Shown here one piece after another: positions 16,296-60,667 of a DNA stretch of 64,000 nucleotides. Made by a program: the position numbers and the translations under genes. Source of the DNA: Streptomyces sp. SAI-127 (GTDB lineage: Bacteria; Actinomycetota; Actinomycetes; Streptomycetales; Streptomycetaceae). The notes under the pieces are model-generated. The model saw nothing but the letters and a program-made list of their open reading frames with translations, searched no databases and was not told the origin of the DNA. Positions within the stretch are counted from its first letter, which is position 1, and each line of letters opens with the position of its first letter. Location of the stretch: positions 62,001 through 126,000 of the forward strand of contig NZ_JARXYJ010000001.1 in NCBI RefSeq assembly GCF_029894425.1, written 5' to 3'.

Positions 16296-16310
16296 AGTAT
16301 TACCGTTCTC
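16296..16310. promoter_or_regulatory. Catabolic-regulon operator, upstream copy
   Basis: AGTATTACCGTTCTC keeps the right arm TTCTC of the GAGAA-N5-TTCTC palindrome. Its centre (16303) is exactly 22 bp from the better copy at 16318. It lies between the divergent ABC transporter operon and the gene at 16336. Confidence 0.45.
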
Positions 16311-16317
16311 CTTCATT

Positions 16318-16332
16318 GAGAGTAACGTTCTC
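16318..16332. promoter_or_regulatory. Catabolic-regulon operator GAGAG-N5-TTCTC
   Basis: GAGAGTAACGTTCTC matches the window-wide palindrome with one arm base changed. It ends 3 bp before the ATG at 16336, so a bound repressor would block that gene's start region. It might also affect the divergent transporter operon starting at 16118. Confidence 0.6.
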
Positions 16333-16335
16333 GTC

Positions 16336-17385
16336 ATGAGCGAACCGAAGAGCACGGCCGCGTACCGCGTGGTGCAGTGGGCGACGGGGAACATCGGGAG
16401 CCGCACCCTGCGCGCGGCGATTGAGCACCCCCGCCTCGACGTCGTAGGGGTCCTGGTGCACAGCAAGGCCAAGTCCGGCCGGGACGCCGGAGAGTTGTGC
16501 GGTCTCGCACCGCTCGGCGTACGCGCCACCACCGATCTGGACGACGTACTGGCGCTGAAGCCGGACTGCGTGCTGTACACACCGCGGGAGCTGGCCTCGG
16601 ACGACGTGTGCGCGCTGCTCTCCGCGGGGATCAACATCGTCGCCACCCGCACCGACTTCCACTACCCGGAAGCAATGGACCCGCGCTTGCGGCGCGGTGT
16701 CGAGGCGGCCTGTGCCGAGGGCGGCGCCAGCATCCACAGCACCGGCAGCAGCCCCGGCTTCGTCACGGAGGCGCTGCCCTTCGTCCTCGCCTCGCTGCAA
16801 CGGCGCCTCGACGGGCTGCTCATCGAGGAGTTCGCCGACCTGTCGCGGCGCGCCTCCCCCGGACTGCTCTTCGACGTGATGGGGTTCGGCGGCCACGAGG
16901 GGACGTTCGACGAGCAGCGGCTCGCGTCACTGCGCGCGAGCTTCGGACCGTCCTTGCGACTGGTGGCCGACACCCTCGGACTTCCTGTCGAACAGGCTGC
17001 GGTGCACGGCGAGTTCGCGTACGCACGGGAACGCACCTCGATCGCCGCCGGGACCCTGGAGGCAGGCACGGTCGCGGCGCAGCGCATCACGGTCGCCTGG
17101 CTGAACGGCGAACGACCCGTCCTCCAATTCCGGGCCATCTGGTACTGCACCACCGACCTCGACCGGTCCTGGGACCTGCGGGACACGGGCTGGCGCCTGA
17201 CGGTCGACGGCGACGCCCCGCTCGACGTCACCATCCGCTTCCCCGTGGCAGCCGACGACGCGGCCGCCGTCTACCCGTCCTACACCGCCAACCGCGCGGT
17301 CAACGCGGTGCCATGGGTGTGCGAGGCTCCGGCGGGCATCCGGACCACGGCGGATCTGCCGCAGATCGTGCCGCTTCTGAACTGA
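16336..17385 (+). CDS. Dihydrodipicolinate-reductase-like NAD(P)-dependent oxidoreductase
   Basis: 349 aa. ATG at 16336 is preferred over 16261 because the longer N-terminus spans the operator and is not conserved-looking. The Rossmann motif VVQWATGNIGSRTLRA is at about 12-27, then LKPDCVLYTP and a C-terminal catalytic-fold domain (GSSPGFVTEALPF). Proteins of this group (often called dihydrodipicolinate reductase or 2,4-diaminopentanoate-dehydrogenase-like) are frequent in actinobacterial lipid and steroid gene clusters. They are not thought to make lysine there. The substrate is unknown. The gene stands alone, convergent with the LLM gene at 17408. Confidence 0.85.
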   Translation: MSEPKSTAAYRVVQWATGNIGSRTLRAAIEHPRLDVVGVLVHSKAKSGRDAGELCGLAPLGVRATTDLDDVLALKPDCVLYTPRELASDDVCALLSAGINIVATRTDFHYPEAMDPRLRRGVEAACAEGGASIHSTGSSPGFVTEALPFVLASLQRRLDGLLIEEFADLSRRASPGLLFDVMGFGGHEGTFDEQRLASLRASFGPSLRLVADTLGLPVEQAAVHGEFAYARERTSIAAGTLEAGTVAAQRITVAWLNGERPVLQFRAIWYCTTDLDRSWDLRDTGWRLTVDGDAPLDVTIRFPVAADDAAAVYPSYTANRAVNAVPWVCEAPAGIRTTADLPQIVPLLN

Positions 17386-17407
17386 GCCGCACCGACCGAG
17401 GCCCCGG

Positions 17408-21253: not shown

Positions 21254-22435
21254 TCAGCCTCGGGGCAGGCCGAGCACCCGCTCGGCGACGATGGTGCGCT
21301 GGATCTCGGAGGTGCCGCCGGCGATGGTGCCGGCGAAGGTGCGGGCGTAGCGCTGGAACCAGCTGCCGGCGAAGTCCTCCCAGTGCATGTACGCGTACGG
21401 GGCGGTGGTGGCGGGGTGCGTGAGCCCGTCAGGCCCTGCCGCTTCGAGGGCGCGTTCGGCGGCCTGCTGCACCGCCTCCGAGCCGAGCAGCTTCAGTACG
21501 GACAGGGCCGGTACGTCCTGTTCGCCGCGGGCGGCGCGCGCCAGGGCCCGCAGTCCGAGCAGCCGCAGCGCCTGGGCGTCCATCGCGAGGGTGGCGTACC
21601 AGTCCTTGTCCAGGTCGGTGAGCGGGCGGAAGTCCCGCAGGAGTTCGTCCATGCGGTCGCTGAAGCTGAGCCACAGCAGGGTGCGTTCATGCCCGAGAGA
21701 GCCGCCCGCGACGCGCCAGCCCTCGTTCAGCGGGCCGACCAGGTTCTGCGCCGGGACACGGACGTCGTCGAAGTAGACCTCGTTGAAGTCGAGGTCGTCG
21801 GGGGCGGTGAGGGAGCCGAAGGGTCGGCGGGTCACACCGGGGGTGTCGGTGGGGATGACAAGGCAGCTGATGCCCTTGTGCTTGGGTGCGTCGGGGTCGG
21901 TGCGGACGAAGGTGAGGAGCACGTCGGCGTCATGGGCGCCGGACGTCCACACTTTCTGGCCGTTCACGACGAACTGGCCGTCTTCGTCCGCGAGTTCGGC
22001 GCGAGTGCTCAGGGAGGCGAGATCGCTGCCGGCGCCCGGTTCGCTCATGCCGAGGGCCGCGGTCATCTCCGCACGCAGGATCGGCACGGCCCAGCGCCGC
22101 TTCTGCTCGTCGGTGCCGAAGGTGAGCAGGGAGGCGGCGATGATGCCGAGGCCCTGGGGGTTGAAGGAGTGGTAGATGCGGCGCCGGGAGAGCTCCTCCA
22201 GGTGGACGTAACTCTGCATCAGTGTCGCGTTCCGGCCGCCGAACTCCGGCGGATTCCCGGGCAGCAGCCAGCCCTCGTCGAAGAGAAGCCGCTGCCAGCG
22301 CCGGGCCCATGCGGGGACGTCCGCGGTGGAGTGCGAGCGCTCAGCCGTTTCGGCCTCGGCGGGCAGATGCGTGTCGAGGAAGGCCGTGAACTCGTCCCGG
22401 AACGCCTCGACTTCGGCGTCGAAGGTCAGCTGCAT
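21254..22435 (-). CDS. Acyl-CoA dehydrogenase, larger member of a pair
   Basis: 393 aa, ATG at 22435, overlapping the partner gene by 10 bp. FAD/substrate motifs are ALGMSEPGAGSDLASL (about 130-145) and VNGQKVWTSGAHDAD, and the C-terminal end is AGGTSEIQRTIVAERVLGLP. It runs leftward in one operon with a second, shorter acyl-CoA dehydrogenase. Overlapping pairs like this in actinobacteria commonly form alpha2beta2 heterotetramers acting on bulky ring-bearing acyl-CoAs, such as the FadE pairs of steroid side-chain degradation. That quaternary structure is inferred. Confidence 0.94.
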   Translation of the reverse strand: MQLTFDAEVEAFRDEFTAFLDTHLPAEAETAERSHSTADVPAWARRWQRLLFDEGWLLPGNPPEFGGRNATLMQSYVHLEELSRRRIYHSFNPQGLGIIAASLLTFGTDEQKRRWAVPILRAEMTAALGMSEPGAGSDLASLSTRAELADEDGQFVVNGQKVWTSGAHDADVLLTFVRTDPDAPKHKGISCLVIPTDTPGVTRRPFGSLTAPDDLDFNEVYFDDVRVPAQNLVGPLNEGWRVAGGSLGHERTLLWLSFSDRMDELLRDFRPLTDLDKDWYATLAMDAQALRLLGLRALARAARGEQDVPALSVLKLLGSEAVQQAAERALEAAGPDGLTHPATTAPYAYMHWEDFAGSWFQRYARTFAGTIAGGTSEIQRTIVAERVLGLPRG

Positions 22436-23460
22436 GATGCGCCTACGCCTCCCGCGTCGCGATGATTCGAGGTGATGAGTTCGGCGATGCGGGCCCGGTG
22501 CGCCGCCGCGCCGCCCCGCATCAGCTCCCCCGCCTTGGCCCGCTTGAGCGCGAACTGCAGGTCGTTCTCCCAGGTGAAGCCCATCGCGCCGAACAGCTGG
22601 ATGCCGTGCCGGAAGACGAGCGCCTGGCACTCCCCGGCCGCCGCCTTCGCCATGGCCGCCGCGAGCGGCCGGTCCGGGGCGTCGGCCGCGATGGTCAGTG
22701 CGGCGTGGTAGGCAAGTGCATGGGCTCTCTCGATCGCCACATACATGTCGGCGGCTTTGTGCTGTACGGCTTGGAAGGATCCGATGGGTGCACCGAACTG
22801 GCGCCGTGTACGGGCGTGTTCGAGCACCAGGTCGAGTACGCGGCGGCACGCGCCGACCATGGTGACGGCCATGGCGGTGAGGGCTACATCGTTGGCGTGC
22901 GGTGGAGGTGCGGCGCTCACGCGGGCGTCGTCGGTGACCCGCACCTGCGAGAACGTTACTTCCGCGAGGTGCAGGACCGGATCCAGCGCCGGTGTCCGTA
23001 CGGCCCGCACCTCCTGGGCGGGCACGAGGAAGACTCCCTCATCGGTGACCACGGCGAACCAGTCCGCCCGGTCGCCGTCCAGGACGTGGCGGGCGTGGCC
23101 GTCGAGGAACCAGACCCGGCCCTCACGCCGGGCCCGCACGCCCTCGACGACCGCGGCGCCCGGCTCCCGGGGGGCGATCAGGCCTTCCGGCACGAGGGGG
23201 GCGAACTGGGTGAGCGTGGCGAGATAGGGCGTCGGATCGGTCGCACGGCCCAACTCCTCCAGCACGATGGCGAGTTCCACCATCTGAGCCGGGTCGGCGA
23301 GTTCGGTCCAGCCGAGGTCCGCGTAGGTGCGCCACAGCGGCTCCGGGTCAGCGTCCGCATCGACCACCGCACGTACCAGCGCAGGCGGGCACTCCTTGGC
23401 GAGGACCTCCCGGACGGACTTCTGCCACAGCCGCTGGTCGTCGTCGAACTCGAAGAGCAT
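22426..23460 (-). CDS. Acyl-CoA dehydrogenase, smaller member of a pair
   Basis: 344 aa, ATG at 23460, first gene of the leftward operon. The N-terminal helical domain is present but the middle is short and lacks the usual SEPGAGSD FAD motif. The C-terminal domain is well kept (ARTRRQFGAPIGSFQAVQHK and FGAMGFTWENDLQFALKR). This is the signature of the small subunit in heteromeric acyl-CoA dehydrogenases, where the FAD site is shared with the partner. The neighbouring 393-aa subunit gene overlaps it. Operator-like repeats lie 63-99 bp upstream. Confidence 0.93.
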   Translation of the reverse strand: MLFEFDDDQRLWQKSVREVLAKECPPALVRAVVDADADPEPLWRTYADLGWTELADPAQMVELAIVLEELGRATDPTPYLATLTQFAPLVPEGLIAPREPGAAVVEGVRARREGRVWFLDGHARHVLDGDRADWFAVVTDEGVFLVPAQEVRAVRTPALDPVLHLAEVTFSQVRVTDDARVSAAPPPHANDVALTAMAVTMVGACRRVLDLVLEHARTRRQFGAPIGSFQAVQHKAADMYVAIERAHALAYHAALTIAADAPDRPLAAAMAKAAAGECQALVFRHGIQLFGAMGFTWENDLQFALKRAKAGELMRGGAAAHRARIAELITSNHRDAGGVGASCS

Positions 23461-23522: not shown

Positions 23523-23537
23523 GATAATAACGTTCTC
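23523..23537. promoter_or_regulatory. Catabolic-regulon operator GATAA-N5-TTCTC
   Basis: GATAATAACGTTCTC, one arm base off the GAGAA-N5-TTCTC palindrome, lies in the 128-bp gap between the divergent acyl-CoA dehydrogenase operon and the TetR gene at 23589. A weaker copy is 22 bp to the right. Confidence 0.6.
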
Positions 23538-23588: not shown

Positions 23589-24284
23589 ATGAAACCGGAG
23601 ATCTCCCTCGACACGGGCCCGGCGGACACCGAACCGACGTGGAAGCAGCGCGCGGTCGAGCGCTCCACCCGGGCGGCCAAACGGCGCGCCGAGCAGAGGG
23701 TGCAGCGTTTCCTCGACGCGGCTCAGGAGCTCATGGCCGACAAGGGCACCACGGACCTCACGGTGCAGGAGGTGGTCGACCGCTCGGGCCAGTCGCTGCG
23801 CAGCTTCTACCAGCACTTCGACGGCAAGCACGAGCTGCTGCTCGCCCTTTTCGAGGACGCCCTGAGCCGGACCGGCGACGCATTGCGCGCGGCCACGTCG
23901 GGACCCGGAGCCGCCGAAGCGCCCGTGGCACGCCTGGAGGCGGCCACCCGGCTGCTGTTCACCATGTGCCGCCCGGGCCCCGGTGACCTGCACCCCCTGT
24001 TCAGCGAGTTCGCACCACAGCTACTGCTCACGCACCCCGATGAGGTTCGGCTCGCGCACGCTCCGGTGCTGGGAATCCTGGCCGAGCTGATGGAGGCGGT
24101 CGACGCGGCCGGCGGGCTGCGTTCCGGCATGCGGCCGCGGCGGGCGGCCGCGATGCTGATGCAGACGACCATGTTCCTGTCGCAGTCGGCCATCGGCGTC
24201 AACCCGGAGGGCCCCGCGCCCCGGCCGCTGTCCGCCGACGAAGTGTGGGCGTTCTGCTCCGGCGGCTTCGAGGCGAGGAGCTGA
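23589..24284 (+). CDS. TetR-family regulator, candidate regulon repressor
   Basis: 231 aa. After a 30-residue charged leader (RSTRAAKRRAEQRVQRFLDA) comes the helix-turn-helix DLTVQEVVDRSGQSLRSFYQ and HFDGKHELLLALFEDAL, about residues 40-95. Its DNA-binding half is close to that of the TetR at 56686-57570, so both may read similar sites. It is divergent from the acyl-CoA dehydrogenase operon, with two GAGAA-type repeats in between, making it a natural autoregulated repressor. Ligands of such regulators in lipid clusters are usually CoA thioesters; that is inferred. Confidence 0.93.
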   Translation: MKPEISLDTGPADTEPTWKQRAVERSTRAAKRRAEQRVQRFLDAAQELMADKGTTDLTVQEVVDRSGQSLRSFYQHFDGKHELLLALFEDALSRTGDALRAATSGPGAAEAPVARLEAATRLLFTMCRPGPGDLHPLFSEFAPQLLLTHPDEVRLAHAPVLGILAELMEAVDAAGGLRSGMRPRRAAAMLMQTTMFLSQSAIGVNPEGPAPRPLSADEVWAFCSGGFEARS

Positions 24285-24308: not shown

Positions 24309-24323
24309 GAGAACGGCATTCTC
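24309..24323. promoter_or_regulatory. Catabolic-regulon operator, perfect palindrome
   Basis: GAGAACGGCATTCTC has both arms perfect (GAGAA and TTCTC). It lies 30 bp before the thioesterase ATG at 24354 and 24 bp after the TetR stop, so the thioesterase probably has its own regulated promoter. Confidence 0.7.
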
Positions 24324-28913: not shown

Positions 28914-28928
28914 CAGAACGACATTCTC
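28914..28928. promoter_or_regulatory. Catabolic-regulon operator CAGAA-N5-TTCTC
   Basis: CAGAACGACATTCTC differs from the perfect palindrome only at the first base. It is the best of three tandem copies in the gap between the acyl-CoA dehydrogenase at 28868 and the broken TetR gene. Confidence 0.65.
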
Positions 28929-29640: not shown

Positions 29641-29676
29641 AAGAGTTCCATTCTGGAATACGAGAATGCTAATTTC
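29641..29676. promoter_or_regulatory. Two degenerate regulon sites in a divergent promoter
   Basis: AAGAGTTCCATTCTG (29641-29655) and GAGAATGCTAATTTC (29662-29676) are degenerate copies of the GAGAA-N5-TTCTC palindrome with centres 21 bp apart. They lie between the broken TetR gene and the SDR gene. The stretch also has a short perfect repeat TTCCA-TTC-TGGAA at 29646-29658. Confidence 0.45.
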
Positions 29677-34201: not shown

Positions 34202-34216
34202 GAGAGTGCTATTCTC
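34202..34216. promoter_or_regulatory. Catabolic-regulon operator GAGAG-N5-TTCTC
   Basis: GAGAGTGCTATTCTC, one base off perfect, lies in the 54-bp space between the divergent acyl-CoA synthetase and the HSD10-like SDR. It abuts the possible synthetase ATG at 34201, so binding would block initiation directly. Confidence 0.65.
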
Positions 34217-42830: not shown

Positions 42831-42921
42831 GTCAACCTCCAGGTCCAACAGGGCAAGTCACCCTCCAGGCCGAGCCGGTCATGTCAGCCTCCAAGTCGAG
42901 TCGGTCATATCAGCCTCCAAG
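42818..42921 (-). repeat. Four tandem 26-bp copies of a translation-start module
   Basis: Read on the minus strand, four consecutive 26-bp units start at 42921, 42895, 42869 and 42843. Each has a TGGAGG ribosome site followed by TGA and then ATGACCG (the third copy has CTTGCCC instead). The first unit contains the stop of the upstream acyl-CoA dehydrogenase, and the last contains the true hydratase start. This looks like slippage duplication of the stop/ribosome-site/start junction between two overlapping operon genes. Confidence 0.8.
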
Positions 42922-44007
42922 TCCCAGGATCCGGCGGGCGATGATGTTCTTCTGGATCTGCGAGGTGCCGCCCATGACGCTCTGGGAACGGCTGTAGAGG
43001 TACTCGGCGAACAGCACCGGGTCGCGGGTGCCGCCGACGGCGAGCGCCGCGTGGCCGACGTCCTGTTCGACCCAGGTCATCAGGAGTTTGTCGAGGGAGC
43101 CCTCGGGTCCGTGGTGGACCCCGTCGAGTCGTTCGGACAGGCGGCGGCGCAGGTGGAGCCGGAGCATCTCGGCCTGGACGGCCGCCCAGCGCAGTTCGTC
43201 GGACGGCTCGGTCTCCGGTGCGCGCCGGGCGAGGTCGCGCACGAGCTTGCCGTAGCGGGCGGTGAAGCCGAGTTCGGCGGGTTCGCGCTCGTGGCCGACC
43301 ACGGTCATGGCGAGGGCCCAGCCCTCGCCGGGGGCGCCGACCATGCGGTCCGCGGGGACCCGCGCGCCGTCGATGACGAGCTGTCCGAACTCGCTCGTCA
43401 CCCCGTTGATCATCTTCAACGGCCGCTGCTGGATGCCTCCTTGATGCATGTCGACGATGAAGGCCGAGATGCCCTTGTGCCGCGGAACGTCCGGATCGGT
43501 GCGGGCCAGCATCAGGCACCAGTCGGCGACGTCCGAGTAGCTGGTCCAGATCTTGTGGCCGTCGAGGAGGTACGTGTCGCCCTCGCGCGTGGCCGTGGTG
43601 GTGAGGGAGGCGAGGTCGGAGCCTGCTCCGGGTTCGCTGAAGCCCTGGCACCAGCGTTGCGTTCCGTCGATCATGCCGGGCAGGAACCGGCGGCGCAGTT
43701 CCTCGCTGCCGTGCCGCCCCAGGCCCTGGACGAGATAGCCGAGGCTGGGGCGCGGGCGGGCTCCGGCGCGGGCGAGTTCCTCGTCGAGGATCACGTCGTA
43801 CACCGGGGGCAGCTCGTGGCCGCCGTACGCGCGCGGCCAGGTCAGGCCGAAGAACCCGCCGGCGTACAGGGCCTGGTGCCAGTCGCCCTGCCGTGCCCAG
43901 TAGTCCTCGCCGGAGCCGGAGGCGGGGAACCTCGCGGCGTTGTCCGCCAGCCAGGTCCGCAACCGGCCGCGGAACGCGGCCTCTTCGGGTGCGTCACGAT
44001 AGTCCAA
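42910..44007 (-). CDS. Acyl-CoA dehydrogenase, larger member of a second pair
   Basis: 365 aa with a TTG start at 44007, chosen because GGAGGAG lies about 8 bases upstream and because the earlier ATG at 44079 would overlap the partner gene by 86 bp. FAD motif: CQGFSEPGAGSDLASL; substrate region: LLDGHKIWTSYSDVADWCLM; C-terminal end: VMGGTSQIQKNIIARRILGL. It overlaps the 3' end of a shorter acyl-CoA dehydrogenase by 14 bp, so the two probably form a heteromeric enzyme, as proposed for the 21-23 kb pair. Confidence 0.92.
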   Translation of the reverse strand: MDYRDAPEEAAFRGRLRTWLADNAARFPASGSGEDYWARQGDWHQALYAGGFFGLTWPRAYGGHELPPVYDVILDEELARAGARPRPSLGYLVQGLGRHGSEELRRRFLPGMIDGTQRWCQGFSEPGAGSDLASLTTTATREGDTYLLDGHKIWTSYSDVADWCLMLARTDPDVPRHKGISAFIVDMHQGGIQQRPLKMINGVTSEFGQLVIDGARVPADRMVGAPGEGWALAMTVVGHEREPAELGFTARYGKLVRDLARRAPETEPSDELRWAAVQAEMLRLHLRRRLSERLDGVHHGPEGSLDKLLMTWVEQDVGHAALAVGGTRDPVLFAEYLYSRSQSVMGGTSQIQKNIIARRILGLGG

Positions 44008-44899
44008 GGTCGATCTCCTCCAGGCGTACGGGGAACAGCTCGCTCGACGTGAGCACGCGCCGCAGATACACATGGGCAAGGCACTCCCAGGTGTTGCCGA
44101 TGCCGCCGTGCACCTGGATCGCGGTCTCGCATACGGTGCGCGCGGCGCGTGCGCAGTAGACCTTCGCGATACGGGCGGATCGCAGGGCCTCCTCCGGGCC
44201 GGTCGCGTCGACGGCCCAGGCCGCGTACCGCAGCACGCTGGTGGAGCCCTCGATCAGGGCGAGGCCCTCGGCGAGCGGGTGCGACACGGCCTGGTAGGAG
44301 CCGATGGACTGTCCGTACTGTTCGCGGATCTTGGCGTACTCGCAAGCCAGCGCGTGCGCTCCGCGGGCGGCTCCGAGCAGGTCGGCGGAGGTCGCGACGA
44401 GTGCGAGGGCGTGGAAGCGGGCGGCCCGCTCTTCGGTGAGCGCGGGCAGCGGCTCCGGTTCGCCGATGAGTTCGCTGCGTGCGCGCGTGAGATCGGCGGT
44501 GCGTATGGGGTCCCCCAGTGCGCCCGCGAAGGGGATGGTCTCCCGTAGCTCGACCGCGCGTCGCATCCCCCGCGCGTCGACGGCCTCGCCGTTCACCGCG
44601 AGCGTCCAGGCGGTGCGGTCCTCCGCGGCGGCCGGGAGCAGTTCGTCGGCGAGCACCGGACCGAGGTAGGGCACGTCGATCAGTCCGCGCCCGAACTCCT
44701 CGGCGACCAGGGCGACTTCGACACCGGTGGCGTCGTCCGAGCGCAGCCGGCGCCAGCCCGTGTCGGCGACGGCCTTCTCCAGGCGGGCGAGGCGCGCTTC
44801 GTCGTCCAGGTCGAGGACCGAGCCCGGTCCGAGGTCCGCGGACAGCTTCCCTGCCGCCTCCTTCAGCCACTGCTGCTCACTGGTCAGCCGTGCGTCCAT
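43994..44899 (-). CDS. Acyl-CoA dehydrogenase, smaller member of a second pair
   Basis: 301 aa, ATG at 44899. The middle domain is reduced and no SEPGAGSD motif is found, while the C-terminal domain is kept (CEYAKIREQYGQSIGSYQAV, QVHGGIGNTWECLAHVYLRR). This is the small-subunit pattern. It lies between the acyl-CoA ligase (23-bp overlap) and the larger dehydrogenase subunit. Together they would dehydrogenate the CoA ester made by the ligase. Confidence 0.92.
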   Translation of the reverse strand: MDARLTSEQQWLKEAAGKLSADLGPGSVLDLDDEARLARLEKAVADTGWRRLRSDDATGVEVALVAEEFGRGLIDVPYLGPVLADELLPAAAEDRTAWTLAVNGEAVDARGMRRAVELRETIPFAGALGDPIRTADLTRARSELIGEPEPLPALTEERAARFHALALVATSADLLGAARGAHALACEYAKIREQYGQSIGSYQAVSHPLAEGLALIEGSTSVLRYAAWAVDATGPEEALRSARIAKVYCARAARTVCETAIQVHGGIGNTWECLAHVYLRRVLTSSELFPVRLEEIDLGLS

Positions 44900-46316
44900 G
44901 ACGCTCCTTCAGGACTCGGCGCAGGACCTTCCCTGACGGAAGGCGGGGTATCTCGTCCACGAACACGACCTCGTGCGGCCGTTTGTAGGTGGCCAGGCGT
45001 TCGCCGACGTAGGCGATCAGGTCGCCCGCCGTCACCGGTGCGCGCGTGGAGACGGCGGCGATCACGGACTCCGAACCCTCATCGCCGGATACGCCGTAGA
45101 CGGCGCAGTCGGACACGGCCTGATGGCCGAGGAGCACGCCTTCGACCTCGGCCGGCGCGACCTGGAACCCCTGGACTTTGATCATCTCCTTGGAACGGTC
45201 CGTGAGGTACAGCCAGCCGTCGCTGTCCACGCGCCCGACGTCACCGGTGCGGTACCAGCCGCCCCGGAAGGCCTCGCGGGTCGCGTCGGCGGGCAGGTAA
45301 CCCGCCATCAAGGACGGCGACTTGAGCTCGATCTCGCCGGTCTCGCCGACCCCGAGGACGCGTCCCGTCTCCAGGTCGGTGACCCGCACCCGCACGCCCG
45401 GCACCGGCCGCCCCACACTGTCGAGCCGTGCGCCCTGAAGGGGATTGCAGGCGATGACGGGCAGTTCGCTCGCCCCGTAGGCGGGCACCCAGCCGACCCC
45501 CGTACGGCGGGTGACCTCCTCGGCGACGCCGGCCGTCACGGGTGTCGCGCCCCACATGATGAACCGCAGCGAGGACAGGTCGTACGACTCCAGGTCCGGG
45601 TGCCTCGCCATCGCCAGGGCGATCGGCGCGACGGCCATCTCGACGGTGATCCGGTCCTTCTCGATCCGTTCGAGGACCCGGTTCAGATCGAAGCGGCGAT
45701 GCAGCCGCACCCATGCACCGGCGGCGAGCGCCGTCTCGATGTTGAGCAGGCCGAGGATGTGCGAGGGCGGGGTGGTCACCTGGAGGCGGTCCTGCCCGGT
45801 GAGTTGGAGGGCGTCCGTCCAGTGCCTTGTCGCCGCGGCGAACGACGCATGGGTGTGGCGTACGGCCTTCGGCAGTCCGGTCGTGCCCGAGCTGAAGACG
45901 AGGACGGCATCGGCGGCCGGATCGGGCGGGGAGAACGTCCCCGCGCCGTCACCGGTAAGCGTCACCTCGTCCAGGTGCAGCATGGGCATCAGGTCGGCGA
46001 GCACCTGCTGGTCGCCGAGCGCGTCGGCGGGGCGGGTGACCGCCAGGACATGCTCGACCTCGGTCCTCTTCCACGCCGGGCTGATGAGGACGACCGCGGC
46101 TCCCGCCTTCCACACGGCATGGACGGCCACCACGAACTCGGGCCGGTTCGAGGACATGAGCGCCACCCGCTCCCCCGCGCGCACCCCTCGGCGTACCAGG
46201 GTCGCGGCGAGGGAGTCGGCGAGGGACTCGAGCCGGCCTCGGCTGTACGTCTCCTCCTCGAAGGCCAGGGCCGCCTCATCCTGCGCGCCGGACGTCTGCA
46301 TGTGAGAGGCTCCCAT
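44877..46316 (-). CDS. Acyl-CoA ligase (AMP-binding, 4-coumarate-CoA-ligase-like)
   Basis: 479 aa, ATG at 46316 (a second ATG five codons on is possible). Adenylation motifs are VLVFSSGTTGLPKAVRHTH, VPAYGASELPV and TGDVGRVDSDGWLYLTDR. The catalytic Lys is in RLPSGKVLRR. It heads a six-gene operon (ligase, two acyl-CoA dehydrogenases, hydratase-like, LLM, SDR). It activates a carboxylate to its CoA ester, the entry step for this operon. Confidence 0.94.
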   Translation of the reverse strand: MGASHMQTSGAQDEAALAFEEETYSRGRLESLADSLAATLVRRGVRAGERVALMSSNRPEFVVAVHAVWKAGAAVVLISPAWKRTEVEHVLAVTRPADALGDQQVLADLMPMLHLDEVTLTGDGAGTFSPPDPAADAVLVFSSGTTGLPKAVRHTHASFAAATRHWTDALQLTGQDRLQVTTPPSHILGLLNIETALAAGAWVRLHRRFDLNRVLERIEKDRITVEMAVAPIALAMARHPDLESYDLSSLRFIMWGATPVTAGVAEEVTRRTGVGWVPAYGASELPVIACNPLQGARLDSVGRPVPGVRVRVTDLETGRVLGVGETGEIELKSPSLMAGYLPADATREAFRGGWYRTGDVGRVDSDGWLYLTDRSKEMIKVQGFQVAPAEVEGVLLGHQAVSDCAVYGVSGDEGSESVIAAVSTRAPVTAGDLIAYVGERLATYKRPHEVVFVDEIPRLPSGKVLRRVLKERHGRTADQ

Positions 46317-46325: not shown

Positions 46326-46340
46326 GAGAACGTTATTCTC
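46326..46340. promoter_or_regulatory. Catabolic-regulon operator, perfect palindrome
   Basis: GAGAACGTTATTCTC is perfect in both arms and lies in the 61-bp gap between the divergent acyl-CoA ligase (46316) and the ferredoxin reductase (46378). One site can therefore control both directions. Confidence 0.75.
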
Positions 46341-53749: not shown

Positions 53750-53756
53750 GCTTACT

Positions 53757-53771
53757 GAGAATGCCAATATC
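53757..53771. promoter_or_regulatory. Catabolic-regulon operator GAGAA-N5-ATATC
   Basis: GAGAATGCCAATATC has a perfect left arm and a partly conserved right arm. It lies in the 205-bp region between the divergent ligase (53594) and the hydratase (53800), so it may serve both. Confidence 0.5.
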
Positions 53772-53799
53772 CACGACGCCACAGGTACGGAGGTTCCGC

Positions 53800-54543: not shown

Positions 54544-54557
54544 GCGCGGCACGCCAT

Positions 54558-54594: not shown

Positions 54595-54606
54595 GATGCG
54601 GCAGGG

Positions 54607-54918
54607 TCAGCCCTGGCGCGGCGGCATCTCGAACCCCGCGAGCAGCACGCCGTTGCAGTCGGCCGCGGCCAGCCGCAGCACCTTCGCCTCGGCATACGCG
54701 GCGGACTCGTACCAGGCCTGGGCAGCCTCCACGGAAGGGAACTCCACGAGGACGGTGCGCCCTTCGTGCCACTGGCCCTCCAGGACCTGCGGGCTCGCGT
54801 CGACCGCGAGGACGCGTGCGCCCGCCTCGGCCATGGACGGCGCCGCCGCACGGCCGTAGGCATCCATTCCGGCCTGGTCCTTGATGGCCTCGGTGACGAT
54901 GACATAGCCCTTGGGCAT
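54607..54918 (-). CDS. DUF1330 protein
   Basis: 103 aa, a single alpha/beta-barrel domain: MPKGYVIVTEAIKDQAGMDA, then TVLVEFPSVEAAQAWYESAA and YAEAKVLRLAAADCNGVLLA. This is the DUF1330 pattern (dimeric ferredoxin-like fold). Members are scattered through catabolic clusters and no activity is agreed. It is the last gene after P450 and ferredoxin on the same strand, 50 bp downstream, so cotranscription is likely. Confidence 0.88.
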   Translation of the reverse strand: MPKGYVIVTEAIKDQAGMDAYGRAAAPSMAEAGARVLAVDASPQVLEGQWHEGRTVLVEFPSVEAAQAWYESAAYAEAKVLRLAAADCNGVLLAGFEMPPRQG

Positions 54919-54968
54919 ACGGGGCCTCTCTTCGTACGGGGGAAGGTAAGGGAATTGCAGGCGGACCG

Positions 54969-55157
54969 TCAGGTCACCGTGATGGCGCGCTCGGGGCAGG
55001 ACCCGGCCGCCGTCTTCACGCCCGCCTCCGTCCCGGCCGGCAGCTCGCCCTCACGCGCCTCGGCATAGCCGTCATCGGTGAGGGTGAACACCTCCGGGCA
55101 GGCGAGCTCACAGATGCCGTGGCCCCGGCAACGCTCGTCGTCGACGCTCGCCTTCAC
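54969..55157 (-). CDS. Ferredoxin, 3Fe-4S type, P450 partner
   Basis: 62 aa, GTG at 55157 overlapping the P450 stop as GTGA. The cluster Cys are in CRGHGICELACPEV (C10, C16, C20) and SCPERAI (about C53). The C-X5-C spacing with the final CP is the usual P450-partner ferredoxin pattern; C20 is an extra Cys not in the three-ligand set. It is almost certainly the electron donor of the overlapping P450. Confidence 0.93.
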   Translation of the reverse strand: MKASVDDERCRGHGICELACPEVFTLTDDGYAEAREGELPAGTEAGVKTAAGSCPERAITVT

Positions 55158-56494
55158 GCGGCCTCCTGCGGGGGCGCGAGCGTGAACTGCAGGAACAGCC
55201 TGGTCAGTCCGCGCAACATGAAGGTCGGTACGTAGTGGAAGCGGCGCGCGCCCGCGGGGCCGTGGTGGTCCTCGGAGAGCCGGATGTCGGTGGTGCGGTC
55301 GAGGAGCCGTTCGATGGCCACCCGGGCTTCCGCGCGGGCCAGCGGTGCTCCCGGGCAGGTGTGCGGTCCGCGACCGAAGGCGATGTGGCGGCGGACTCCG
55401 GGGCGCGCGGGATCGAACGCGGCGGGGTCGTCGAACTGGCGTGGGTCGCGGTTCGCTGCGCTGTTGAGGAGCATCACCGTGGTGCCCGCGGGCAGACCGA
55501 CGCCGCCGACCGTGACGGGTACGCGGGTGAGCCGGAAGTCGCCCTTCACCGGGCTCTCGGTGCGCAGCACCTCCTCGACGAAGAGCGGCACCCGGTCACG
55601 GTGCTCCCTCAACTCGGCCTGCAGTTGCGGCTGTTCGGCGATGAGCTTGAGTGCGGAGCCGAGCAGGCGCACCGTGGTCTCCTGACCCGCCGCGAACAGG
55701 TTCGCGGCGACCCGCACGACGTCCGCGACCTCGGGCAGCCTGCCGTCGGGGAAGGTGGCGGTGGCCAGGCCCGTGAGGACGTCCTCGCGCGGCGCACGGC
55801 GCCGGTCCTCGATGTAGCGCGCGACGCGCTCGTACAGGTGCCCCAGCGGGTTGCGGTCCAGGGTGTCCTCTCCGGTGCTGCCGATACCGCCGCCGTCCGC
55901 CGGACCGTGCCGCAGCAGGGCGGCGATCTCCGCCCGGTCGCCTTCCGGTACGCCGAGCAGATCCGCGATGACGAGAAAGGTGAAGGGACCGGCGAACCCG
56001 CTGACGAACTCACCCGGGACTGCAACGCCCTCGCCCTCCAGGAAATCGTCGAGCAGTCCGTCGGCGAGGCGCCACATGGCCTCCTCGTTCTCCTTCAGCC
56101 GCTTCGGCGTGATCAGCCGCATCAGGAGCGCCCGGTGGTCGGTGTGCACCGGCGGGTCGAGAGTCGGCAGCTGGTCGCTCATCGGCAGCTCGTCGCGGTG
56201 CGCCTCGATGAGCCCGCTGACGTCGTCGCCCTCGAGCGGCACCGGGAATCCGGGGAACGGCCCACTCACCGCGTTGCACGCGGAGAACGCCTCGGTGTCG
56301 TTGTAGATCCGTACGGCCTCGTCGTAGCCGGTCACCATGACCACGTCGTGGTGACTCTCGCGCTGCACCGGACAGCGCGCGCGGAGTGCGTCGAAATAGG
56401 GGTACGGGTCCGCGACGACGCTCTCGTCACGGAAGAAGTCCACTGCCTCGAAGTCCGTCTCATCGTCCGTCACTGCCGGCACGGCTCCCTTCAT
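55154..56494 (-). CDS. Cytochrome P450
   Basis: 446 aa, ATG at 56494. I-helix motif AAGQETTVRLLG; K-helix EEVLRTE; heme loop FGRGPHTCPGAPLARAE with Cys380. It differs clearly from the P450 at 2685 (PG in place of LG after the Cys and a longer N-terminus). Two regulon-type sites lie 43-78 bp upstream, so it is expected to be induced with the other catabolic operons. It probably hydroxylates the pathway substrate or an early intermediate. Confidence 0.94.
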   Translation of the reverse strand: MKGAVPAVTDDETDFEAVDFFRDESVVADPYPYFDALRARCPVQRESHHDVVMVTGYDEAVRIYNDTEAFSACNAVSGPFPGFPVPLEGDDVSGLIEAHRDELPMSDQLPTLDPPVHTDHRALLMRLITPKRLKENEEAMWRLADGLLDDFLEGEGVAVPGEFVSGFAGPFTFLVIADLLGVPEGDRAEIAALLRHGPADGGGIGSTGEDTLDRNPLGHLYERVARYIEDRRRAPREDVLTGLATATFPDGRLPEVADVVRVAANLFAAGQETTVRLLGSALKLIAEQPQLQAELREHRDRVPLFVEEVLRTESPVKGDFRLTRVPVTVGGVGLPAGTTVMLLNSAANRDPRQFDDPAAFDPARPGVRRHIAFGRGPHTCPGAPLARAEARVAIERLLDRTTDIRLSEDHHGPAGARRFHYVPTFMLRGLTRLFLQFTLAPPQEAA

Positions 56495-56536
56495 CGGCGT
56501 TACCCGGTAGGGAAGTTACCAACACCGGACAGCGGT

Positions 56537-56551
56537 GAGAAGGGCGTTTCC
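56537..56551. promoter_or_regulatory. Catabolic-regulon operator GAGAA-N5-TTTCC
   Basis: GAGAAGGGCGTTTCC has a perfect left arm and three of five right-arm bases. It is 43 bp upstream of the P450 ATG, paired with the next site 21 bp away. Confidence 0.45.
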
Positions 56552-56557
56552 ACACAT

Positions 56558-56572
56558 GACAATGACAATCTC
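56558..56572. promoter_or_regulatory. Catabolic-regulon operator GACAA-N5-ATCTC
   Basis: GACAATGACAATCTC differs from the palindrome by one base in each arm. With the preceding copy it forms a tandem pair in front of the P450-ferredoxin operon. Confidence 0.5.
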
Positions 56573-56621
56573 AACCTGGTGCGGCCATGGCGGCCCTGGC
56601 GCACGCCACCGGCAACGCGAA

Positions 56622-56657
56622 AGCCCCGTGCGAACGCTGGTGCGTACGCGCGGGGCT
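56622..56657 (-). terminator. Hairpin terminator after the TetR gene
   Basis: AGCCCCGTGCG and CGCGCGGGGCT form an 11-bp stem with one wobble pair. On the minus strand it is followed by TTTCGC, and it begins 28 bp after the stop of the TetR gene at 56686. It would end the TetR transcript before the P450 promoter. Confidence 0.65.
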
Positions 56658-56685
56658 GATGTGATGCGCTGTGGCGGTAACGAGG

Positions 56686-57570
56686 TCAGTCGGCCGTTCG
56701 CTTGGCTGTGCGCGCGGTCGTCGGCTTCTTGGCCGGTGCCTTCCTCGCGGCGGCCCTCTTGGTCGTGGTCGTCTTCTTCGCCGGGGCCTTCTTGGCCGCG
56801 GGCGCCCGCTTCGCAGGCGCCGTGCTCTCCGCGGTGGCCTTGGCCGGCGCCTTCACCGCGCTGCGGCTCTCGGCCGTGAGCCCGCCGAACAGCAGCTCCC
56901 ACAGCGCCTCGGCCTCCGCGGCTGTGTCGTCCCCGGCGTGCAGGCCACCGATCGTCACGGCGAAGGAGCTGAACATGGTCGCCTGCAGCACCGTCCCCGC
57001 GACGCGGCGGAGGTCCAGGTCCTGGCGCACGGCACCGGAGGCGGCCGCCGCCTCGAGCAGTTCGACGAGGAGGGCGTTGATGGGCCCGAAGGCGCGCGCC
57101 GCCTCCTTGGGGTGCTCGGTCATCAACTGCTGGGCGAACTCGGCCATGCCGAGTGTCGCCGCCCTGCGCTCCTTGGGGGCCGTGGCGATCGGCCGGCACA
57201 GCCGGTAGTAATCGACGGTGAAGCGGTGCAGACGCTCCAGCGGATCGTCGATCTCCTCGAGCGCGTCGCGCAGCCGGACCGTGGTGGAGGACACCGACTC
57301 CTCGAACAGGGCGAGCAACAGCTCGTGCTTACCGGCGAAGTACTGGTAGAAACTCCGCAGGGACTGGCCGGACTTCTTGACCACTTCCTGCACGGTGAAG
57401 TCCTTGCCGGACTCGCCGCTCAGCAGCTCGAGGGCCGCGTCGAGAAAACGCTGCACGCGCTTCTCGGCCCGCACCCGCGCGGGATCGACGGACCGCGCGA
57501 CGGCCAGCTCACGCCAGCTGGCGGTGGTCTCGGTGGAAAAGGGCTCCGGCGCCGGATCGCTCGTGGTCAT
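56686..57570 (-). CDS. TetR-family regulator with histone-like C-terminal tail
   Basis: 294 aa, longer than the family's usual 190-230. The helix-turn-helix is DFTVQEVVKKSGQSLRSFYQ and YFAGKHELLLALFEESV (about 53-90), nearly the same as in the TetR at 23589. The ligand domain runs to about residue 237. The last 57 residues are almost only Lys, Ala, Pro, Thr and Arg (AKKAPAKKTTTTKRAAARKA), like bacterial histone-H1/AlgP tails, and could bind DNA non-specifically. A regulon-type palindrome at 57636 precedes the gene, so it is probably autoregulated and a second candidate controller of the regulon. Confidence 0.92.
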   Translation of the reverse strand: MTTSDPAPEPFSTETTASWRELAVARSVDPARVRAEKRVQRFLDAALELLSGESGKDFTVQEVVKKSGQSLRSFYQYFAGKHELLLALFEESVSSTTVRLRDALEEIDDPLERLHRFTVDYYRLCRPIATAPKERRAATLGMAEFAQQLMTEHPKEAARAFGPINALLVELLEAAAASGAVRQDLDLRRVAGTVLQATMFSSFAVTIGGLHAGDDTAAEAEALWELLFGGLTAESRSAVKAPAKATAESTAPAKRAPAAKKAPAKKTTTTKRAAARKAPAKKPTTARTAKRTAD

Positions 57571-57635
57571 GGCCCAAGCCTAGCGCACGGGCGAGATCGC
57601 GCCTCTCCCTCACCAATACGCTCGCGGACAGTTCG

Positions 57636-57651
57636 CAGAAACTAGGTTCTC
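57636..57651. promoter_or_regulatory. Regulon-like palindrome with a 6-bp spacer
   Basis: CAGAAACTAGGTTCTC resembles the other sites, but the arms CAGAA and TTCTC are 6 bases apart rather than 5. It lies 65 bp upstream of the TetR ATG at 57570 and suggests autoregulation. Confidence 0.45.
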
Positions 57652-57695
57652 AATGTCCCGGGCCGTGTTCGCGAGGAACGGGCCCAGGCGGGGCT

Positions 57696-58940
57696 TCAGT
57701 CCCGGTACACCTGCCCGCCTTTCATCACGAACCGGACGTCACCGGTCACCGCGATGTCGGAGAGCGGGTCACCCGCAACACCCACGATGTCGGCGAGCAG
57801 CCCGGGTTCGAGCCGTCCGCGGTCCTCGGCGTCGATGAGATCGGCGGCGACGACCGTGGCCGCCCGTAGCGCCTGGAGCGGCGTCATCCCCCGGTCCACC
57901 AGGGCGATCAGCTCCTTCGATCCGCGGCCGTGCGGGATGGCGGGAGCGTCGGTGCCCAGGGCCACGCGCACCCCTCGGGCGATGGCGCGCGAGGTGGTGG
58001 CGCGGGCGAGCGGAAAGACCTCGGCAGCCTTGGCCTGTAGTTCGGGGGCGGCGTGTGTGAGGTCCATGGCCTCGGTCAGGCAGGTGGTGGCAACGAGGAA
58101 AGTGCCCCGCTCCGCCATCAGGTCCAAGGTCTCGTCGCTCGCGAGGAAGCCGTGCTCGATGCAGTCGATGCCTGCGTCGAGGGCGGCGCGGATGGCCCGG
58201 TCGCCCATGCAGTGGGCGGCGACCTTGACGCCGGCACGGTGGGCCTCGTCCACGATGGCACGCAATTCCTCGTCGGAGTACTGCTGGGCACCGGCCGGCC
58301 CGGTGTGCGACATCACGCCGTTGGAGGCGCAGACCTTGATGACGCGGGCGCCGTACTTGAGCTGGTAGCGGACGGCCTTGCGGACCTCGTCGACGCCGTT
58401 GGCGATCCCCTCCTCGACGGTGAGCGGCATGACGTGCGGGGCCAGGGCCTGGAACATGGTGGGGTCGAGGTGGCCGCCGGTGGGCGTGATCGCGTGCCCC
58501 GCGGGCACGATCCGCGGGCCTTCCACCCACCCCAGGTCGATGGCTTTCTTAAGGGCCACGTCGAGGAGAATGCCTCCGGTCTGCACGAACAGTCCGAGGT
58601 TGCGGACAGTGGTGAATCCGGAGCGCAGGGTCCGGCGGGCGTTGGCAGCGGCGCGCAGGGTCCGTACGGCTGGGTCCTCCTGGACCGGGATGAGCGGGCT
58701 GCGGTGATCGGCCCCGCCCAGGACCAGGTCCACCTCCATGTCCATCAGGCCGGGCAGCAAGGTGACATCACCGAGGTCGCGTACGACCGTGTTCTCCGGC
58801 AGGGAGTCGGGGCCGATCGCGGTGATCCGTTCACCCTCGACGAGGACCGAGCCCCCGGTGACGTACTCCCCCTTCTCGATGTCGAGCAGCCGGGCGGCGC
58901 GCAGGAGCACGGGAGGCGACGGCGTGCGGGGCCGGGCCAT
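57696..58940 (-). CDS. Amidohydrolase-family protein (prolidase/imidazolonepropionase-like)
   Basis: 414 aa, ATG at 58940 one codon-gap from the preceding stop. The composite fold starts with a small beta domain, then TLLPGLMDMEVDL. Later metal and catalytic residues are present: Lys in ARVIKVCASNG, His in VAAHCMGDRAI and CIEHGFL, and Asp in LGTDAPAIPHG. The usual HxH after PGL-D is replaced by E69-V-D71. It may bind a single metal or belong to a subfamily with other ligands. It is the last gene of the Rieske oxygenase operon. Confidence 0.88.
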   Translation of the reverse strand: MARPRTPSPPVLLRAARLLDIEKGEYVTGGSVLVEGERITAIGPDSLPENTVVRDLGDVTLLPGLMDMEVDLVLGGADHRSPLIPVQEDPAVRTLRAAANARRTLRSGFTTVRNLGLFVQTGGILLDVALKKAIDLGWVEGPRIVPAGHAITPTGGHLDPTMFQALAPHVMPLTVEEGIANGVDEVRKAVRYQLKYGARVIKVCASNGVMSHTGPAGAQQYSDEELRAIVDEAHRAGVKVAAHCMGDRAIRAALDAGIDCIEHGFLASDETLDLMAERGTFLVATTCLTEAMDLTHAAPELQAKAAEVFPLARATTSRAIARGVRVALGTDAPAIPHGRGSKELIALVDRGMTPLQALRAATVVAADLIDAEDRGRLEPGLLADIVGVAGDPLSDIAVTGDVRFVMKGGQVYRD

Positions 58941-58942
58941 GC

Positions 58943-59281
58943 CTACACCGCCGGTTCGAGGACGGCGTCGATGCTGGAGGCGCCCGAGTCGGGAACCCTC
59001 GGCTGGCGCCAGGCCTCCACGGGGAAGGCGACGGTCACCAGCGCGCAGAACGCCCACAGCAGGCACTTGTCCTGCTCGGACAGGCTCTCCGGCTCGGTCA
59101 TGTCGACCTGCTCCAGGTAGGCCGTGCCGTCCCGCAGGAGCGGGAACGCCACGCTGTAGAAGGCGTCGAGCTCCTCCATGGTGGAGGCGATGCGCTTGGC
59201 GTAACGAGCGCGCTCGGTCGGGATCGCCCAGTCGGCGAAGGGTTCGAGCGCGGCGAATTCGGGCGGGAAGGTCTGCGCCAT
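58943..59281 (-). CDS. Uncharacterised 112-aa protein of the Rieske oxygenase operon
   Basis: 112 aa, ATG at 59281, 32 bp after the Rieske gene stop and 2 bp before the amidohydrolase start. No domain is recognised. It is acidic with aromatic-rich helices (EFAALEPFADWAIPTERARY, STMEELDAFYSVAFPLLRDG) and no signal peptide. Its tight place between an oxygenase and an amidohydrolase suggests an accessory or small-subunit role in the same step, but nothing in the sequence proves it. Confidence 0.82.
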   Translation of the reverse strand: MAQTFPPEFAALEPFADWAIPTERARYAKRIASTMEELDAFYSVAFPLLRDGTAYLEQVDMTEPESLSEQDKCLLWAFCALVTVAFPVEAWRQPRVPDSGASSIDAVLEPAV

Positions 59282-59313
59282 GGTCGGTGTCTCCCAGGGG
59301 TTGTCGGCTGCTG

Positions 59314-60591
59314 TCAGGACGCGTCGGCCGTGGTCGCCTGGTGATCGTTCACGTACCGCATCGCCGTGTGGTGCAGATGCCGTAGGAGTACTTCCTGGTC
59401 GTTGAGCGGGAAGTCGAGGGCCGCCCGTGACTGCAGCATCGTCTGGGTCGCTTCGAGGGTGTTGCCGTCCTGAAGCCCGTACTCCTTGAAGGAGACGACG
59501 GCCAGCTCCTGCTGCAGCCGCTCGAAAGCGTTCTTCGGCGGTACGAAGTAGGCGGTGCCCTCGAAGATGTGCGTGTTGTACGAGGTCGGCCAGTAGTGGT
59601 ACGTGAGAACCCAGTTGGGGCGCCAGATCAGCAGCATGAAGTTGGGGAAGAAGACGAAGGAGTCCATGCCCCAGCGCTTGTCGCGGGTCGGGTTGACCGC
59701 GGGCGGCAGGTCCTCGGTGGCCACGCCGAGGTCCGGTGCGTCCCAGGGCCCGAACAGACCGCTGCGCAGCGCCGCTTCGATGGGCTTGACCATCTTGCGG
59801 TCCAGCGGCGGCGCGATGCCTCCCCAGGAGGAGACCATGCTGTGCGGGCCGTCGATGTCGTACGCGAGGGCCTCGTACCCGTACTTCTGGATCTTGGCGC
59901 GCTCCTCGGCCATGTACTGACCGCCGTGCAGGATCGGCGCGTGATAGAACTCGGCGAACGCGTCGATGAACAACTTCCAGTTGGAGCCGATCTCGGCGCG
60001 GTACTTGTGCACCTGGGTCAGCCTGTCGAACGGGTAGCCCTTGATGCCGGACCCGAACTTACCGAGAAAGTCCCGCAGTTCGGTGGTGTTCTCCGGGTCG
60101 AGGTTGACGAAGACGAAGCCCTCCCACACCTCGCACTGGACGCCGACGAGTCCGTAGTCGCCCTTGTCGAGGTCGAAGAACTCGCCTTCCTGCTGCACGA
60201 AGGCCAGCTTGCCGTCGAGGCCGTAGCGCCAGGCGTGGTACTTGCAGGTGAACTGACGGCAGGTGCCGCTGGTCTCCTCGCGCGGGAAGTCGTTCCACAC
60301 CAGCTTGTTGCCGCGGTGGCGGCAGACGTTGTGGAACGCGCGGATCTTCTCGTCCGTGCCGCGCACGATGATGACCGAGGCGCCGGCGGCGTCCAGCTCC
60401 TTGGTGAAGTAGCTGCCCTTCTTCGGCAGCTGCTCGACCCGGCCGACGTTCAGCCAGGTCTTCTTGAAGATCGCCTCACGCTCCTGCTCGTAGAACTCCG
60501 GCGAGATCGAGTCCTCGAACGAGAGCGGCTCGGTGCCGATCTTGAAGTGCTCGGTCCAGCTGCCCGCCTCGGGCTTGGGGAAGTGCGGCAT
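59314..60591 (-). CDS. Rieske non-heme iron oxygenase, alpha subunit
   Basis: 425 aa, ATG at 60591. The Rieske cluster motif is C-x-H (VCRHRGNKLV) and C-x2-H (FTCKYHAWRYGLDG), about residues 90-125. The catalytic iron site is in NWKLFIDAFAEFYHAPILHG with the His-x4-His pair. No beta subunit is adjacent, so it is probably an alpha-only type. The reductase at 46378 has the same operator class and could supply electrons. The likely role is mono- or di-hydroxylation of a ring. Confidence 0.94.
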   Translation of the reverse strand: MPHFPKPEAGSWTEHFKIGTEPLSFEDSISPEFYEQEREAIFKKTWLNVGRVEQLPKKGSYFTKELDAAGASVIIVRGTDEKIRAFHNVCRHRGNKLVWNDFPREETSGTCRQFTCKYHAWRYGLDGKLAFVQQEGEFFDLDKGDYGLVGVQCEVWEGFVFVNLDPENTTELRDFLGKFGSGIKGYPFDRLTQVHKYRAEIGSNWKLFIDAFAEFYHAPILHGGQYMAEERAKIQKYGYEALAYDIDGPHSMVSSWGGIAPPLDRKMVKPIEAALRSGLFGPWDAPDLGVATEDLPPAVNPTRDKRWGMDSFVFFPNFMLLIWRPNWVLTYHYWPTSYNTHIFEGTAYFVPPKNAFERLQQELAVVSFKEYGLQDGNTLEATQTMLQSRAALDFPLNDQEVLLRHLHHTAMRYVNDHQATTADAS

Positions 60592-60652
60592 GGGGTTCCG
60601 TCCTCACGCTCGTCGTTCCGACAGGCCGACGATAACAGAGCTACCGCCTGAA

Positions 60653-60667
60653 GAGAATGCCGTTCTC
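60653..60667. promoter_or_regulatory. Catabolic-regulon operator, perfect palindrome
   Basis: GAGAATGCCGTTCTC, perfect in both arms, lies 62 bp before the Rieske ATG and overlaps the last two bases of the CoA-transferase stop codon. It gives the Rieske operon its own control separate from the upstream run. Confidence 0.72.

Follow-up and report, generated by a model that had tools for sequence, protein, structure and literature searches.

A 64,000-nucleotide stretch of the Streptomyces sp. SAI-127 genome (contig NZ_JARXYJ010000001.1, positions 62001-126000; hereafter the window) carries conserved palindromes in front of its catabolic genes. These palindromes are very probably the binding sites of a single TetR-family repressor, TetR-A, which would control a catabolic island of about 100 kb. 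The island covers contig 36052-137218 (101 kb) and runs from about -26 kb to +75 kb relative to the window; positions outside the window are given below as signed window equivalents. The proposed regulator is encoded inside the window:

23589..24284, + strand: TetR-A, 231 amino acids, proposed autoregulated regulator with a TetR_N domain

The N-terminal helix-turn-helix of TetR-A matches PF00440 with an E value of 1.7e-11, above the gathering score. TetR-A is almost certainly the regulator of this operator set, judging from the clustering of the sites, the autoregulatory position of one of them and the co-occurrence of motif and regulator among genomes. These three lines strongly support the original prediction that one operator family belongs to one TetR-type regulator. 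The operator and its regulator can be regarded as established as far as sequence is able to do so.

The operator motif and its clustering in the island

The motif was described in three ways: a loose pattern, GAGAA-N5-TTCTC, a tight consensus, GAGAAYNNNRTTCTC, and the proposed operator form, GAGAAY-N3-RTTCTC. With up to two mismatches the loose pattern occurs 35 times in the window, compared with 10.97 expected, and none of 100 shuffles reached 35. Perfect copies of the loose pattern number nine in the genome, three of them far from the island. The tight consensus has six perfect copies in the 10.72-Mb genome, all within one 77-kb stretch (contig 50412-127649), and 56 copies with one mismatch, versus four for a reversed control pattern. 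Furthermore, pairs of AGAAY and RTTCT half-sites were found in the island eight times at a spacer of 3 and never at spacers of 0-2 or 4-6.

Genes were called over contig 1-166000 and in the corresponding regions of relatives, and domains were assigned by Pfam. Thirteen regions from 12 relatives carrying TetR-A were used, and a 19-column matrix was iterated at 13 bits. With this genome there are 14 regions. Twelve of them hold 13-40 sites at this threshold, compared with 0.8-2.8 in Markov sequence; the regions G018b and G003 hold 3 and 1 sites versus 1.0 and 0.2. We also used a relatives-only matrix that leaves out this genome and its near twin G089, with twenty 20-kb stretches along the chromosome (400 kb) as background. 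At 13, 18 and 20 bits this matrix found 23, 17 and 13 sites in the 101-kb island, compared with 7, 1 and 0 in the background. No site at 13 bits was seen with the full matrix in 65 kb of island flanks.

This genome has 18 sites of at least 16 bits, and 17 of them are upstream of called starts, making 15 control regions. Across the fetched regions 158 sites reach at least 18 bits, and 144 of these have a called start within 250 bp; the distance from site centre to start has a median of 39 bp and an interquartile range of 30-60 (n=143). A promoter and terminator scan of window 45800-61000 gave no excess over shuffles.

Linkage of the motif to TetR-A

A site of at least 13 bits precedes the TetR-A orthologue in all 13 relatives' regions, three of these sites being weak (14.7-15.0 bits). 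Among the best 80 of 153 confirmed loci (the named loci, from Streptomyces, Actinomadura, Frankia and relatives, Amycolatopsis, Prauserella, Catenulispora and others), 69 have a site within 400 bp upstream of TetR-A. Together the 80 loci hold 317 sites, versus 16 in reversed sequence; at least five of them (L110, L142, L160, L164 and L187) come from genomes also used for the matrix.

Motif and regulator also occur together in three genome samples, between which three genomes recur. In the family sample some TetR homologue is present in all 150 genomes and a TetR-A orthologue, counted as E below 1e-60, in eight; at least six perfect sites were found in seven of these eight carriers and in none of the 142 others. 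The order sample of 245 genomes has nine carriers, six of them new, and the motif was counted afterwards: the carriers have 6, 8, 6, 11, 5, 9, 6, 6 and 4 perfect sites, and one of the 236 non-carriers has four or more. In the class sample of 394 genomes, 52 match TetR-A at 1e-30, and 45 of these also reach 1e-60. Every one of these close carriers has at least three perfect sites, compared with 8 of the 349 others. In seven genomes of the class sample only distant homologues (36-44% identical) are present, and none of these genomes has more than one perfect site, so distant TetR homologues need not use the operator. Relatives of TetR-A are numerous, 5,010 proteins being found at E 1e-20 or better.

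The linkage extends to mycobacteria. Of 25 genomes sampled from the mycobacterial genus, 24 carry TetR-A; the exception, G542, has one site. In G400 and G527, 9 and 11 perfect sites cluster round TetR-A; the G527 cluster probably runs across the start of the record, because two of its sites lie at the other end. The sites in these two genomes adjoin orthologues of island genes, namely the ligase with dehydrogenase pair 2, a short-chain dehydrogenase/reductase (SDR), dehydrogenase pair 1 with a hydratase, the Rieske gene and the P450. The predicted regulon is unusually widespread among actinomycetes, mycobacteria included.

Several observations weigh against control of the whole island by TetR-A. 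Eleven of the 80 named loci have no 13-bit site upstream of TetR-A. In G003, which carries TetR-A, perfect sites are absent and a single 15-bit site lies at the TetR gene itself; the protein keeps 15 of 17 recognition-region residues, and nearly all island genes are missing from the region fetched. A strong match (23.0 bits, at -23392) falls within the large-subunit gene of an acyl-coenzyme A (acyl-CoA) mutase. Conservation is low at some sites: the one before SDR +64812 is kept in 3 of 10 regions, that before aldehyde dehydrogenase +73716 in 3 of 11, and that before the importer binding protein orthologue in just 1 of 12, which makes operator control of the importer doubtful. Fisher values for the co-occurrence overstate the number of independent cases, because the genomes share ancestry. 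Finally, only 14 of the 56 one-mismatch copies of GAGAAYNNNRTTCTC are inside the island and 42 are outside, so that such copies alone are not specific. These 42 copies, together with the genome-wide excess of the loose pattern with one mismatch (168 copies versus 102 in the reversed control), are what could be said for chance or compositional matches picked by eye. The shuffle, spacer and co-occurrence tests oppose that explanation and the background scan contradicts it, which leaves it with next to no probability.

We considered a second operator class with spacer 5 and rejected it. The 80 named loci contain 20 copies of the full pattern and the relatives' regions 7, and these recur with nearly the same letters in similar places in many loci. 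They are probably conserved coding sequence.

The original prediction named two TetR genes as candidate regulators. The one at 23589 is conserved, as described above; the other, a paralogue confined to the lineage, has no convincing site of its own:

56686..57570, - strand: TetR-B, paralogue of TetR-A, 45% identical, role uncertain

TetR-B keeps 40 of 57 residues of the helix-turn-helix of TetR-A but only 44 of 135 in the ligand domain, so the two proteins might share operators. If they did so while sensing different intermediates, the island would be under two-signal control in this lineage. The retained recognition-region stretch QSLRSFYQ-F-GK and the location of TetR-B inside the island fit such an arrangement. 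However, its orthologue is present in 1 of 13 regions, the matrix scan gave nothing that reached 13 bits upstream of the TetR-B gene, and the class genomes with distant homologues are nearly devoid of perfect sites; we consider two-signal control rather unlikely. The claim of a site before the 56686 gene depended on the 57636 palindrome and is unsupported. Other TetR genes of the island are also sparsely conserved among the 13 regions: the short TetR at 29138 has orthologues in three, MftR at 35080 in two, the TetR at -5158 in one and the TetR at 9303 in three. The short TetR-like gene (window 29138-29533) encodes 131 amino acids from its called start, with the helix-turn-helix at residues 4-50, and is divergent from an SDR gene with an operator between them; it is possibly truncated or wrongly called.

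Comparison with KstR, KstR2 and Rv0767c

One of the closest known parallels is the KstR regulon of cholesterol catabolism in Mycobacterium. Like the island, it has a TetR-family regulator whose own gene belongs to the regulon, an AGAAC half-site palindrome and many catabolic operons, and its operator is TAGAAC-N2-GTTCTA, according to PMC1995591. The island operator differs in having a spacer of 3 rather than 2 and outer G/C rather than T/A, and it serves a different gene set. The prediction that the motif is unlike the KstR consensus therefore stands for the spacer but not for the half-site, which is shared. The KstR operator TNNAACNNGTTNNA has no copy in the island; elsewhere there are two copies in 1.35 Mb of the relatives' sequence, two in 240 kb of mycobacterial sequence and four in the 80 named loci.

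The shared half-site, the thiolase-DUF35 fusion and the heteromeric dehydrogenases of the steroid side-chain kind could point to KstR-type operators and to an island that belongs to ordinary steroid catabolism. Markers of 9,10-seco steroid catabolism are ketosteroid dehydrogenase (FAD_binding_2) and extradiol ring-cleavage genes. Neither an FAD_binding_2 nor an extradiol-type domain was among the 89 distinct proteins scanned, a scan short of every island gene. The island spacer is never 2, TNNAACNNGTTNNA is missing, and the TetR-A profile finds KstR structures with E 1.4e-4, ranked below many other TetR proteins. Ordinary steroid catabolism under KstR is thus very improbable.

The KstR2 operator differs from that of the island and is of the CAAG type. 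KstR2, which controls genes for steroid C/D rings, is a TetR repressor released by a CoA thioester, as stated in PMC6678751, and the same kind of release is proposed here for TetR-A. KstR2 resembles the TetR-A profile at the family level only (E 2.3e-5).

The best candidate in print was the Rv0767c regulon of Mycobacterium. According to PMC6593523, a palindromic motif X stands before 14 operons that include genes for P450, dehydrogenases and TetR proteins, and the regulon is induced by phytosterol. It resembles the island in having a TetR regulator with P450 and dehydrogenase operons, and an Rv0768-like aldehyde dehydrogenase is found in the island, though below the family cut-off. We examined Rv0768-type loci in mycobacterial genomes; six loci were above that cut-off. 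In five of these loci, the best ones of five genomes, a TetR gene is divergent from the dehydrogenase gene, with two copies of GGACANNTGTCC each. The pairs lie at about 1260-1455 in L230, L231, L232, L233 and L234, between the TetR gene and the Rv0768-type aldehyde dehydrogenase. GGACANNTGTCC is likely to be the operator of Rv0767c orthologues, which fits the reported enrichment of GAC/GTC in sites of Rv0767c (PMC10312376). The sixth locus, L237, has neither palindrome. The five loci contain no GAGAAY-N3-RTTCTC site and no TetR-A relative; their regulator has no detectable similarity to TetR-A. Moreover, G400 and G527 are among the five genomes and carry the TetR-A island elsewhere. We therefore rejected Rv0767c as the known identity of the system, in a comparison based on the Rv0768-type loci rather than on the motif X logo, and it is extremely unlikely that the motif belongs to Rv0767c and the island to its regulon.

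In searches of the open-licence literature none of six motif strings was in print (figure logos and subscription journals were outside their scope), and the same literature gave no named pathway or regulator for the GAGAAY-N3-RTTCTC operator. The suggestion that the regulon may be undescribed survives these searches.

For TetR-A we propose the following model. A TetR-A dimer would bind GAGAAY-N3-RTTCTC at the 15 control regions and immediately in front of the TetR-A gene. When substrate is absent, it would keep genes for P450/Rieske oxygenation, CoA ligation, beta-oxidation and possibly uptake off, and an acyl-CoA made by the pathway would release it. Repression, dimer binding and the acyl-CoA ligand are inferred by analogy with KstR and KstR2. 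If the model is true, it offers a single point of access to some 100 kb of conserved genes of an orphan catabolic pathway. Because the operator is defined, a one-site reporter could screen compounds for the inducer, and the orphan pathway would become directly testable.

Control regions, catabolic genes and the possible substrate

Site conservation was counted over the regions with an orthologue, defined by reciprocal best hit and an identity of at least 45%, and a site was counted as kept at 13 bits or more. The operators in the window are as follows.

16193..16207: before the importer binding protein 14733-16097 (-); 19.4 bits
16318..16332: before a DapB-like oxidoreductase 16336-17385 (+); 23.1 bits; kept in 4/8 regions
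23523..23537: between TetR-A (+) and dehydrogenase pair 1 (22426/21254, -); 20.9 bits; kept in 13/13 before TetR-A and 7/11 before 22426
24309..24323: before an acyl-CoA thioesterase 24354-25166 (+); 25.8 bits; kept in 6/9
28914..28928: before an acyl-CoA dehydrogenase 27540-28868 (-) and downstream genes; 21.9 bits; kept in 9/10
29662..29676: between the short TetR-like gene 29138-29533 (-) and SDR 29717-30511 (+); 20.7 bits; kept before the SDR in 3/6
34202..34216: between ligase 32660-34201 (-, with thiolase 31528) and SDR 34256-35023 (+); 23.4 bits; kept in 11/11 on both sides
46326..46340: between ligase 44877-46301 (-), grouped with dehydrogenase pair 2 and a hydratase, and ferredoxin reductase 46378-47406 (+); 26.4 bits; kept in 3/3 on the ligase side and 10/10 on the reductase side, several at 13-15 bits
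51983..51997, internal: before amidohydrolase 50779-51960 (-) and ligase 49304-50782; 29.2 bits; kept in 9/9
53757..53771: between ligase 51999-53594 (-) and hydratase 53800-54543 (+); 16.0 bits; kept in 9/9 on the ligase side and 6/9 on the hydratase side
56558..56572: before the CYP150A-like P450 55154-56473 (-); 18.7 bits; kept in 7/7
56537: weaker operator beside the 56558 site; 15.4 bits
60653..60667, internal: before Rieske oxygenase 59314-60591 (-), 58943 and amidohydrolase 57696; 26.2 bits; kept in 10/11

The four perfect copies (24309, 46326, 51983 and 60653) and four one-mismatch copies (16318, 23523, 28914 and 34202) are located as originally predicted. Eleven of the twelve sites on that list score 16.0-29.2 bits with the relatives-only matrix; the twelfth, 57636, reaches 11.1 bits at 57637 and fails. 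Our own gene calls and Pfam confirmed sites before the P450, Rieske, thioesterase and 23589 TetR genes, and the placing of the 16318 site before the DapB-like gene was also right. Sites were further claimed before all four ligases and both heteromeric dehydrogenase operons. This is so, except that ligase 49304 and the dehydrogenase pair 43994/42910 are reached only as downstream genes of presumed operons. The idea that 51983 and 60653 are internal control points agrees with their conservation in relatives. Site 16193 was absent from the earlier list, as were the following control regions, which lie outside the window.

-11588: SnoaL-like gene with a third heteromeric dehydrogenase pair; site at the -11550 gene kept in 6/9 regions
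-5223: GH78 rhamnosidase and TetR
+65635 and +65748: SDR operon; dehydrogenase-P450-thiolase operon
+73675: aldehyde dehydrogenase

The main catabolic and uptake genes of the window are these.

11010..16097, - strand: branched-chain-amino-acid-type ATP-binding cassette importer with two ATPases, permease and binding protein (Pfam)
21254..23460, - strand: heteromeric acyl-CoA dehydrogenase pair 1 (Pfam), nearest solved chains 6wy9/6wy8 of Tcur3483
42910..46301, - strand: ligase and heteromeric acyl-CoA dehydrogenase pair 2 (Pfam)
54969-55157: ferredoxin by the P450 (Fer4_15)
55154..56473, - strand: cytochrome P450, CYP150A6-like (6dcd CYP150A6, E 4.1e-147)
59314..60591, - strand: Rieske oxygenase large subunit (Pfam), nearest solved chains of carnitine monooxygenase

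The substrate may be a polycyclic isoprenoid (for example a terpenoid, steroid or sapogenin), perhaps the aglycone of a plant glycoside. This is weakly suggested by the CYP150A6 likeness, by a thiolase-DUF35 fusion in the island that resembles the lipid-transfer protein/ChsH2 complex 6ok1, by the Tcur3483-like dehydrogenases and by the rhamnosidase. Another close known case is the CYP150A5 system of Mycobacterium marinum, to which the CYP150A6-like P450 of the window can be likened; CYP150A5 oxidises beta-ionone (PMC6237146), and the accessible text assigns it neither a catabolic pathway nor a regulator. Against an isoprenoid, no classical steroid-ring enzyme was among the 89 scanned proteins, which do not cover every island gene, the nearest solved chains of the Rieske protein are those of carnitine monooxygenase, and only one of the 13 regions has a rhamnosidase orthologue. 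For the P450 at +67710, identity with CYP51 or CYP125 was rejected, as its nearest solved chains are P450cin and the CYP125MRCA protein, none of them close.

It is possible, though on balance doubtful, that a class-wide actinomycete regulon, parallel to KstR/KstR2 yet distinct from them, runs an undescribed pathway for plant polycyclic isoprenoid aglycones, standard in many mycobacteria and patchy in Streptomyces. Substrates of such a pathway would be triterpenoid or steroidal sapogenins or related terpenoids. Its chemistry would comprise retro-aldol reactions on the side chain, P450/Rieske attack, heteromeric acyl-CoA dehydrogenases, amidohydrolase-fold hydrolysis and a B12 acyl-CoA mutase.

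The GH78 alpha-L-rhamnosidase (1236 amino acids) is encoded at contig 52909-56619 (window equivalent -9091 to -5381; L018:12909-16619); a 19.6-bit site separates it from a divergent TetR gene. The single orthologue of the rhamnosidase among the 13 regions is in G310 and not in the near twin G089; it is therefore regarded as accessory. Two gene sets inside the island have no sites of their own. A mycofactocin cluster (window 35080-40243) contains MftR, MftC and MftD above NCBIfam cut-offs, a creatininase-family gene and an SDR gene; none of the predicted operators belongs to it, and two of the 13 regions have orthologues of MftR, MftC and MftD. The other set (window 4804-9128) encodes a molybdopterin hydroxylase, with a CoxG-like protein and the large subunit; among the 13 regions its orthologues are only in G089 and in the second G018 region.

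The mutase mentioned above is B12-dependent and has two subunits (contig 37070-39102; L017:17070-19102). Its closest solved chain is 2-hydroxyisobutyryl-CoA mutase, followed by methylmalonyl-CoA mutase. It keeps a Tyr/Arg pair that we take to be of the methylmalonyl type, which is not decisive for specificity. The mutase is 84-90% identical in nine relatives' regions, besides 98% in the twin.

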